Of a stretch of DNA of 64,000 nt, positions 29,586 to 32,355 are shown piece after piece. Below the pieces are notes generated by a model that did no database searches, was not told the origin of the DNA, and was given only the letters and a program-made list of their open reading frames with translations. Position 1 is the stretch's first letter. Every line of letters starts with the position of its first letter. Where the stretch lies: assembly GCA_021821465.1 (NCBI GenBank), contig JAKACM010000009.1, positions 1 through 64,000 on the forward strand, given 5' to 3'. A program made the translations under genes and the position numbers. The DNA is from Bacillota bacterium (GTDB lineage: Bacteria; Bacillota; Sulfobacillia; Sulfobacillales; Sulfobacillaceae).

Positions 29586-30362
29586 TTATGCATTAAGCGT
29601 TAACATATAAATGCCAACGATAATAACGACCCCGGAAAAGACAAAATTCAAGGTCCGTTTATGCTTGCTCAACTGATTTGCCAGCCTCGTTCCCAAAACA
29701 CCGCCGGCTACTCCGCCGAGGATATATTCTACTACCACTAACCACAACACTAGTCCCGACATTGCGTAGTTAATAGCCGTAGTTAAGCCAAATGTCCCGA
29801 CGGAAAATAATGACGTGCCGATTGCATATATCATGGGCATTCCCGTGGACATGATCAGACCGGGTACAATGAGAAACCCGCCTCCGATTCCAAAGAACCC
29901 GGACACGGCACCAACCAAAAACCCTGCGGGAATAACCTGCCAAAACATCTTGGAATGCCAGTGAAAATGCATACCGCTTTCGGACTTCTTTGGTCTCAGC
30001 ATCAAAAGTGCTACAACCAACATAAGGATGGCAAAGAGAAATAACAAATCCTTGCCGTTAACGATCTTGCCTATCGAAGATCCCACGAATGCTCCAATGG
30101 CACCGGGAATTGCAAAAGCAATCGCAGGGGTCCATCGAACATTACCGCTTCGCCAATGCGGAATTAAATTAAGATAGGCATTTACCGCCACAGCCAACGC
30201 CGTGGTACCGATGACGAGATGGGGATCGCGAATACCGACAAGATACAGTAAGAGCGGCACTGCCAAAATGGACCCGCCACCCCCGATTAATCCTAGACTA
30301 AATCCCACAATTAGGCCCGAAATAACGGCCAGTACTTGTTGTATGGCCGTAACATGTACCAT
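29586..30362 (-). CDS. TauE/SafE-family sulfite (anion) exporter
   Basis: 258-residue membrane protein with eight hydrophobic segments in two similar halves. The first half has SLGLIGGGGSILAVPLLLY, the second has GFFGIGGGFLIVPGLIMSTG, the paired glycine-rich signatures of the DUF81/TauE family. Members export sulfite, sulfonates or organic acids. In a presumed sulfur-oxidising acidophile, sulfite or related oxyanion export is a reasonable guess, but substrate is not shown by sequence. ATG preceded by AGGGGATG. Confidence 0.9.
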   Translation of the reverse strand: MVHVTAIQQVLAVISGLIVGFSLGLIGGGGSILAVPLLLYLVGIRDPHLVIGTTALAVAVNAYLNLIPHWRSGNVRWTPAIAFAIPGAIGAFVGSSIGKIVNGKDLLFLFAILMLVVALLMLRPKKSESGMHFHWHSKMFWQVIPAGFLVGAVSGFFGIGGGFLIVPGLIMSTGMPMIYAIGTSLFSVGTFGLTTAINYAMSGLVLWLVVVEYILGGVAGGVLGTRLANQLSKHKRTLNFVFSGVVIIVGIYMLTLNA

Positions 30363-30682: not shown

Positions 30683-31276
30683 CTACAGATCATCGGTGTC
30701 ACTTGAACCATAGCGCCTTATAACCTGCGCCAATATCCACTCATTCACTGGAAGTGCCAAGATGTCTTTTCCCATAGCAAAAGTCGGAACACTACGTATA
30801 GACAGACGATCCACAAGTTCTTTCGCTTCGTTCAAATCAATCGCATACAATGATACGAGAGGATTGTGAAGACTCATGGCTCCAATCAGGCGAACTGCCT
30901 GTGCGCATTTGGGTCATCCCGCAGTTGTAAAAACTGCAATGGCCAGTGGCTTGGCAATTTCCTCCGCCATTTGTTCGGCTATAGGCGTCAAGATTTTTTG
31001 CTTCCGTCCCACTGCGAGAATTAAGTCGCGCCAACTCATCTCTTCTTGTCCCTTGGGTTGACCCACAAACCATATGTGAACATTTTCTCTTTCTCGCCCA
31101 ATGCCGTAGACCGTCACATTTCGAGGAAACCACGGCCAGGGAATGCCAAAGCCCTTGTCACCATTTTTCCACAGTATCATGCGGCGCCCATGAAATTTTT
31201 CCTCAAACAGTCGATTACCCGGTCCATGGCTCTCGATCACTACCGGCAACAGCAAATCGTCAAGCCAACCCAACAT
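30683..31276 (-). CDS. thioredoxin-fold protein with in-frame UGA in the CxxC motif
   Basis: A 197-codon frame interrupted only by TGA at 30916-30914 (codon 121). The protein reads IAVFTTAG-UGA-PKCAQAVRLIG, so UGA stands where the first Cys of the redox CxxC motif should be. Downstream, YAIDLNEAKELVDRLSIRSV then PTF supplies the betaalpha unit and the cis-Pro of a thioredoxin fold. The first 110 residues are a separate domain. Stops occur nowhere else, and a SECIS-like hairpin follows the UGA. It may be a selenoprotein with a UxxC site, or a single-base nonsense pseudogene (TGC or TGT to TGA). The ATG at 31276 has GGAGG ten bases upstream. It follows a glycosyltransferase gene by five bases, probably in one operon. 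Confidence 0.6.
30882..30912 (-). promoter_or_regulatory. SECIS-like hairpin after the UGA codon
   Basis: Counting from the base after UGA, CCAA (2-5) can pair with TTGG (29-32), and CAGGC (13-17) with GCCTG (23-27), leaving the apical loop AGTTC. A G is in the second loop position and the loop starts 17 bases after UGA. This agrees with the loose bacterial SECIS model (apical loop 16-37 bases away, G among the first two loop bases). It was folded by eye, and the internal loop is asymmetric. Confidence 0.4.
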
Positions 31277-31281
31277 TACTT

Positions 31282-32190
31282 TCAATCCTCCCGCGAACGA
31301 ATCATATGCACCGGTTCACCGCTAATTTCCTCCAAAATCCGCCGCCATTGGCGAGCCACTTGTTTTTTTTCATGAGGTTGGCTAAATTCGAGCCCTCTGC
31401 GGATGAGAACTTCACGTAACCGAGAATTATCGATGACTTCCCGGATAGCTTCCTGCCATGCTTCGGGCTTATTCCCCTCCACAAGCAGGGTAGGATATCC
31501 CCAAAAGTTTCTCATGTCTTCGGTATCACGCAATATGACCGGAAGGCCATGGGCAAAGACATCCAGCAGCTGATAGCAAAGGCCAGGATCTCGCTCAGAA
31601 TATACCAGCAAGTCGGCTGAGCGGTATAAACCCGAAAGTTCATTCTGTGATAATGGCGGTCCAAAGATAATTTTTTGTGCCAATCCTAAATGGGCTACTA
31701 CCGGCGCCAGCCTATCCCGATATGCGAGACCTCCCAATAAGATACCTTCGCCCTGACTTGCTAAAATATTTTTCACTGCCGAAAAAAATGTCGATAACCC
31801 AGCCCCATCTCGGTACGTTCCCAAGTACAAGATCCGGGGTCGTTCCGATAGACGTAGTTTTTGGGTCACCGCGAATACATTTTCATCCAAGCTCCCACCC
31901 GTGGGATCATAAGCAGGCATGCGCAACACGTCGGCTCCGTCTGCAACAATACCCCAACCCAATCCCAAGGGGGCTGGCCATTTCGCTTGGGCATCTCCCA
32001 AGGGGTTGATTAAAATCCGTGATCCTCGCATAGGCTCACCAATCGCAATGGTGAAATATCGAGCGAAAAACAACGACCGTTTGCTTTCGCTCACTCGCCA
32101 GTGTTCTACCAAATGTTTAAGCCTCTGTTCCACTGCTTTATCGAGGTCGCTCGCATTGGCACCAGTCGCCACACGAATAAACTGCGCCAT
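31282..32190 (-). CDS. glycosyltransferase-like protein (GT-B, GT4-type)
   Basis: About 302 residues. RILYLGTYRDGAGLSTFFSA opens the donor-binding half and LYRSADLLVYSERDPGLCYQ then LLDVFAHGLPVIL matches the E-x7-E region of family 4 transferases, with the first Glu not obvious. The N-terminal half is short. The frame is open from 32226, but AGGAGG eight bases before the ATG at 32190 supports the shorter protein. The thioredoxin-fold gene follows after five bases. Acceptor and donor unknown. Confidence 0.72.
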   Translation of the reverse strand: MAQFIRVATGANASDLDKAVEQRLKHLVEHWRVSESKRSLFFARYFTIAIGEPMRGSRILINPLGDAQAKWPAPLGLGWGIVADGADVLRMPAYDPTGGSLDENVFAVTQKLRLSERPRILYLGTYRDGAGLSTFFSAVKNILASQGEGILLGGLAYRDRLAPVVAHLGLAQKIIFGPPLSQNELSGLYRSADLLVYSERDPGLCYQLLDVFAHGLPVILRDTEDMRNFWGYPTLLVEGNKPEAWQEAIREVIDNSRLREVLIRRGLEFSQPHEKKQVARQWRRILEEISGEPVHMIRSRED

Positions 32191-32355
32191 GAACCCGACC
32201 TCCTCTCCCGGATATTGCCAACTCAACGACGAGGTTTTGTGGAAAACCTGATTATAGTCAGCCTCCCATAGAATGCGGTATAATATTATCTACAAATTCA
32301 TTTTCCTGACGCCACTATGGACTATACTGCCAACTTCTAATTCAAGGAGTCAATC

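Follow-up and report, generated by a model that had tools for sequence, protein, structure and literature searches.

A two-unit, thioredoxin-fold gene with an in-frame TGA in a Sulfobacillaceae genome very probably encodes a selenoprotein

The window (the whole stretch of DNA that was analysed, 64,000 nucleotides of one contig from a Bacillota assembly of the family Sulfobacillaceae) carries on its minus strand a gene that is open from start to stop apart from one in-frame TGA. The first-pass annotation had proposed a possible selenoprotein at 30683-31276, with a single UGA where the first redox Cys of a thioredoxin motif is expected (UGA-PKC) and a downstream cis-Pro in VPTF. The span proved to be exact, and each of these elements is present as claimed. 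The locus is organized as follows.

31276..30683, minus strand: putative selenoprotein gene, 197 codons plus a stop when translated with TGA as U; Sec at residue 121, Cys124, cis-Pro164
31276, minus strand: ATG start codon in the reading of the selenoprotein ORF
30916..30914, minus strand: in-frame TGA, the putative Sec codon of the UPKC motif (codon 121 of 197)
30912..30882, minus strand: possible lower stem, CCAA (30912..30909) with TTGG (30885..30882), in the MFE structure
30901..30887, minus strand: core of the putative SECIS hairpin, stem CAGGC (30901..30897) with GCCTG (30891..30887), loop AGTTC, loop G at 30895
30685..30683, minus strand: stop codon of the selenoprotein ORF
31282..32226, minus strand: glycosyltransferase group 1 gene, directly upstream of the selenoprotein gene
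29586..30362, minus strand: TauE/SafE permease gene, downstream; a conserved neighbour outside the selenoprotein

The full product would have a single redox pair, U121-P-K-C124, plus cis-Pro164 in VPTF, and positions 121, 124 and 164 are invariant (Cys, Cys and Pro) when the alignment is read with TGA as Cys. Without readthrough, the product would be a 120-residue protein with no cysteines at all. The glycosyltransferase gene lies on the same strand and ends in its own TGA 5 nt before the selenoprotein ATG, and a Shine-Dalgarno-like GGGAGG is found inside its 3′ end. A glycosyltransferase homologue sits directly upstream in all seven same-genus loci (L023-L029), and a TauE/SafE permease homologue follows downstream in the same seven, the L024 locus holding only its first part. 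Outside the genus, 23 loci (L030-L052) were compared over flanks of at most 1.5 kb; none showed a glycosyltransferase homologue, and a TauE homologue occurred at L044 only. These conserved neighbours suggest cotranscription, without naming a substrate, and cotranscription of the selenoprotein gene with the glycosyltransferase gene upstream is probable. Elsewhere in the window, Rfam matches were found to a group II intron (RF00029; 35027-35100, minus strand; 51.4 bits) and to a SAM riboswitch (RF00162; 59987-60092, minus strand; 83.8 bits).

The critical codon was next compared across relatives. Of 154 genomes searched in the class, 77 gave a total of 129 matches, and all of these matches, the window's own gene included, were read together with four extra members from the window's own genome, making 133 rows. 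Codon 121 was TGA in 103, Cys in 29 and Ser in 1, and the in-frame UGA thus aligns with the Cys of homologues, the alignment by which a selenoprotein gene is recognized and which the first-pass annotation had named as a check. On a quick and short tree (132 rows, 135 columns), the U/C label changed at least 18 times, with 8 changes forced by well-supported branches. The window's gene belongs to a subfamily of 28 rows from 28 genomes, of which 23 have TGA and 5 have Cys. This subfamily forms a separate branch with 97% SH-aLRT support for the 28 rows, the placement of L071, L072, L076 and L083 being unsure, and in the class search all of its rows came from the window's order. Within the genus, UGA is found in five of the seven genomes that hold the gene and Cys in the other two (L028 and L029). 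Scattered further stops and frameshifts in close strains had been named as evidence that would count against a selenoprotein; the same-genus genomes show no further in-frame stop, and no second in-frame stop was found in any of the rows L023-L046.

The same assembly carries the full selenocysteine machinery that the first-pass annotation had proposed looking for, all four genes scoring above curated cut-offs: tRNA-Sec (66.3 bits; called by ARAGORN as tRNA-SeC with anticodon TCA), selB (360.6 bits), selA (552.1 bits) and selD (357.1 bits). Its selD (L018) carries one TGA itself, in SGUGCK. The assembly (4.96 Mb in 199 contigs) is estimated to be 98.16% complete and 5.11% contaminated, and the machinery genes and the selenoprotein gene lie on different contigs. 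The same-genus genome G104 (3% contamination) also holds selB, tRNA-Sec and the TGA form, so that contamination is unlikely to be the cause of the pairing of gene and machinery. More widely, selB was over the cut-off in 58 of the 62 genomes with a TGA form and in 10 of the 15 with Cys forms only. Four TGA-form genomes had no selB at threshold. In G034, tRNA-Sec and selD were found; in G047, selD was found; and in G106 (96% complete), the one genome among the four in which selA was searched, selA and selD were found with no tRNA-Sec over the cut-off. For G123 (63% complete), no selB, selD or tRNA-Sec reached the cut-off. The gap in G106, the source of L025, is probably, if not provably, a matter of missing sequence. 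selD matches with one TGA each were also seen in G106, G034 and G047, the last with two copies. In two genomes, a relative of the gene (L031 in G116, contig C135; L035 in G115, contig C50) lies on the same strand as a selB match and ~2 kb from it, which may indicate a link with Sec metabolism.

A hairpin follows the TGA. Counting the T of TGA as position 1, its stem pairs positions 16 to 20 with 26 to 30, and the loop spans 21 to 25 with a G at 22, so that the stem begins 12 nt past the UGA and 17 nt separate the UGA from the loop. The limits given for bSECIS elements in one review (PMC13188914) are a loop of 3 to 9 nt, a stem of 4 to 16 bp, a G within the first two loop positions, a spacing of 16 to 37 nt and an MFE of at most −7.5 kcal/mol. 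Applied by hand, these limits all accommodate the hairpin, which has a 5-nt loop, five base pairs, a G at loop position 2, a 17-nt spacing and an MFE of −8.5 kcal/mol over 39 nt. It differs from the typical element in that its stem is short (5 bp), its lower stem is unconserved and the A and C at the ends of its loop are unpaired. We scanned the TGAs of both strands of the window, excluding the outermost 300 nt, for five pairs and a G at loop position 2 in ORFs with at least 50 open codons before the TGA and at least 30 after it, and the scan returned this site only.

Conservation of the hairpin depends on the codon that precedes it. All five pairs are present in 81 of the 92 distinct TGA sequences, where a synonymous-recoding null gives 13.0 ± 3.1 (maximum, 22 in 500 runs), and in 2 of the 28 distinct Cys sequences, where the null gives 1.8 ± 1.2. 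The five-pair hairpin thus exceeds chance in TGA sequences only. One or more pairs are missing in 11 of the 92 TGA sequences, and these include 5 of the 23 TGA rows of the subfamily. The loop G at position 22 is found in all 92 TGA sequences and also in all 28 Cys sequences, so that the amino acid suffices to explain this one base. Of the cells in 30 TGA sequences, 94.0% are paired (shuffles, 79.5 ± 1.8), 19 cells are compensatory (shuffles, 4.1 ± 1.6) and the covariation score is 0.446 (shuffles, 0.187 ± 0.027), values reached by 0 of 500 shuffles in each case, these shuffles ignoring the relatedness of the sequences. The remaining two of the five covariation measures, pairs changed on both sides (42 of 500) and further pair types (94 of 500), were within the range of the shuffles. 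A 23-row subset of the 30, without L038, L042, L046 and L049-L052, led to the same conclusion (96.5% paired; score, 0.490); L038 and L042 are poor hairpins. Among eight tree-independent pairs on supported branches, an average of 5.5 showed pairing together with TGA and none showed the reverse (median p, 0.03; range, 0.016 to 0.25).

The first-pass annotation had described a CAGGC/GCCTG stem with an AGTTC loop of loose SECIS geometry, which we recovered, and had added a CCAA/TTGG stem, which is absent from the RNAalifold consensus of relatives (23 sequences). Compared with dinucleotide shuffles, the 39-nt element has no exceptional stability (z, −0.25), and the 21-nt core, picked afterwards, gives a z of −3.40. 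An Rfam search found no SECIS match at the site, only two sub-threshold unrelated matches. Two Cys forms from one same-genus genome (L028 and L156, from G107) keep all five pairs, the only two among the 28 to do so; they may be fossils of a recent Sec-to-Cys change, about as many (1.8 ± 1.2) being expected by chance.

Does the reading frame past the TGA still encode a working protein? If a one-base nonsense mutation had broken a Cys-type thioredoxin-like gene, the part past the UGA would be decaying. TGA is indeed a single change from TGC or TGT, and Cys forms are present in the same genus. However, among the 10 pairs formed by the five same-genus TGA sequences, 9 had a lower dN past the UGA than ahead of it, and the tenth had a slightly higher one. 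Downstream dN/dS was 0.085 to 0.175 (computable in 7 of the 10 pairs) and upstream dN/dS was 0.079 to 0.238 (computable in 4), dS being saturated in many of these comparisons. The sequence comparison therefore indicates that the half after the UGA is under purifying selection in the same-genus genomes. The TGA is moreover common to most of the same-genus and subfamily genes, no second stop has accumulated and the hairpin exceeds chance only alongside TGA, none of which fits decay. We rejected the nonsense mutation, which we regard as extremely improbable, because the TGA is shared and selection continues beyond it.

A frame that stays open past the TGA is also what would be seen if TGA were a general sense codon (for example, for Trp) or if it were read by leaky, near-cognate readthrough without Sec, and leaky readthrough is compatible with the sequence. 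The glycosyltransferase gene immediately upstream ends in TGA, which shows that TGA works as a stop in this neighbourhood, and on this ground general recoding was rejected. In addition, the 30 relatives without TGA have Cys in 29 cases and Ser in 1, never Trp, and the genome has a full Sec machinery to go with a matching hairpin. We give this reading next to no credence. A further alternative accepts that Sec is inserted but takes the main role to be that of a selenium- or stress-dependent switch between a truncated 120-residue scaffold and the full protein. Bacteria commonly insert Sec incompletely, and termination at the UGA would leave a nearly complete, cysteine-free first fold unit. However, nothing we found suggests that the short product has a role, and the five subfamily members with Cys would make the full protein only, so that switching as the main role seems highly improbable.

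The selenoprotein reading is further informed by the predicted structure. An AlphaFold2 model built from a 31-row alignment (mean pLDDT, 94.5; pTM, 0.91) shows two thioredoxin-like units. The best 15 PDB matches are PDO-type glutaredoxin-like proteins and AhpF or its N-terminal domain, with TM-scores of 0.73 to 0.80 by query, except for Sso1120 (4mnn) at 0.66. Two thioredoxin units in one chain of the predicted structure are what defines the PDO and AhpF N-terminal-domain arrangement, and we regard the two-unit PDO/AhpF-type fold as a confident prediction. The thioredoxin fold put forward in the first-pass annotation therefore stands, but as a two-unit protein resembling PDO and the AhpF N-terminal domain rather than as a plain thioredoxin. 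The protein scores 17.1 bits against Thioredoxin PF00085 (gathering cut-off, 23.5) and 35.9 bits against the full-length AhpF flavoprotein model TIGR03140 (cut-off, 502.9), below the cut-off in both cases. The nearest NCBIfam model, TIGR02187 (PDO_seleno_TRX), gives 66.9 bits (E value, 1.5e-18) against a cut-off of 185, the match covering only profile positions 79 to 189 of 209. All 24 rows of the subfamily alignment match TIGR02187, with a best E value of 1.5e-22, from which it follows that none of them should reach 185 bits (the bit score being known for one member).

Comparison with known systems places the protein more closely. Like the TIGR02187 selenoproteins, it consists of two thioredoxin units and has its UxxC in the second; it differs from them in scoring below the cut-off, in its diverged first unit and in forming a separate branch. 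PDOs from Aquifex, Pyrococcus and Aeropyrum (2ywm, 2ayt, 1j08, 1a8l and 2hls) match the fold over its whole length (TM-score, 0.73 to 0.77 by query) and are alike in sequence over query positions 67 to 176 (E values, 4.4e-7 to 1.3e-5); identity, however, is 14 to 19%, and here the redox site is in the second unit only, with Sec. The highest TM-scores (0.78 to 0.80 by query) were obtained with the AhpF N-terminal domain (1zyn and 4o5q), which we take to have, like this protein, one redox pair, in its second unit; unlike AhpF, the gene here has no flavoprotein fusion and Sec replaces Cys. In the 24 rows, the first unit is strongly diverged, with Trp47 and Trp49 invariant, and the C-terminal end has an invariant Glu179-Trp180. 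In a sample of 398 genomes of the phylum, the subfamily profile matched 29 at an E value of 1e-15. Three of these matches are strong and near full length (1.4e-67 or better), all from the window's family: the window's genome, G098 and G111. The other 26 genomes gave 3.1e-27 or weaker, and among the 38 profile matches listed, 34 begin at profile position 53 or later. A protein scan of genome contigs added two weak relatives, from Bacteroidetes and Ignavibacteriota.

The position of the UGA, the presence of the Sec machinery, selection on the hairpin and selection past the UGA are all computational observations, and together with the alignment of TGA with Cys they support the original selenoprotein proposal. 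We conclude that the gene very probably encodes a selenoprotein in which SelB and the hairpin direct Sec to residue 121 of a single-site, two-unit PDO/AhpF-type protein for thiol-disulfide exchange; the actual insertion of Sec, the electron donor and the substrate are what we infer. SelB with Sec-tRNA-Sec would bind the hairpin and Sec would be inserted at residue 121 in place of termination. The cysteine-free first unit would probably serve as a scaffold, and Sec121 and Cys124 in the second unit, opposite cis-Pro164, would carry out thiol-disulfide exchange. By analogy with AhpF and PDO, the Sec-Cys pair would most likely be reduced by an NADPH-flavin enzyme of the thioredoxin reductase type, and the acceptors would most likely be peroxiredoxins or other (protein) disulfides.

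Proteins of this kind are already known as selenoproteins. Already in 2006, Carboxydothermus hydrogenoformans and Symbiobacterium thermophilum were credited with a selenoprotein described as a homolog of the AhpF N-terminal domain (PMC1794560), an entry that reappears in later reviews as TIGR02187 with UxxC (PMC9312934 and PMC13188914). One study reported putative Sec formate dehydrogenases in all of its Sulfobacillus genomes (PMC4378227), and proteomic work on S. thermotolerans named a Sec peroxiredoxin, PrxU (PMC7409299). In the accessible parts of the literature on Sulfobacillus selenoproteins and selenocysteine, we found no report of this gene, and neither the subfamily nor the set of related genes described below was found in the literature searched to the same extent. 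What is new is thus the diverged subfamily below the NCBIfam cut-off, apparently undescribed, and the presence of six TGA members in one genome. The selenoprotein is of an ordinary kind, and its lineage context is moderately interesting. Annotation that takes UGA as a stop easily splits such genes or labels them pseudogenes. The Cys-form relatives in the genus, with a hairpin that follows the codon, offer a clean natural test of Sec/Cys replacement, and the gene suggests that thiol redox chemistry depends on selenium in the Sulfobacillus acidophilus family, which is of biomining interest.

Only the window's own genome was also searched with TIGR02187, so that the number of members found there is not comparable with other genomes. 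Of its eight matches, six contain a single TGA and the two others, which are short, contain none. The six TGA members are L055-L059 and the window gene, on contigs C76, C103, C32, C152, C186 and C62, and the TGA is at the same codon in each. We viewed the flanks of L055, L056, L057 and L059 by eye and recognized no reductase or peroxiredoxin. One tentative idea, which we consider rather doubtful at present, is that a Sulfobacillus-family lineage multiplied Sec PDO-type proteins into a dedicated selenium disulfide/peroxide relay, in which the window's subfamily would have a remodelled, partner-binding first unit. Should the six members form a functional network, selenium supply could set a limit on how well these bacteria withstand oxidative and metal stress. 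Two of the paralogues, L055 and L056, are over the TIGR02187 cut-off, and the other four members have diverged; the members on C32, C152 and C186 make up a further diverged group, with VVNMGI after the UxxC.
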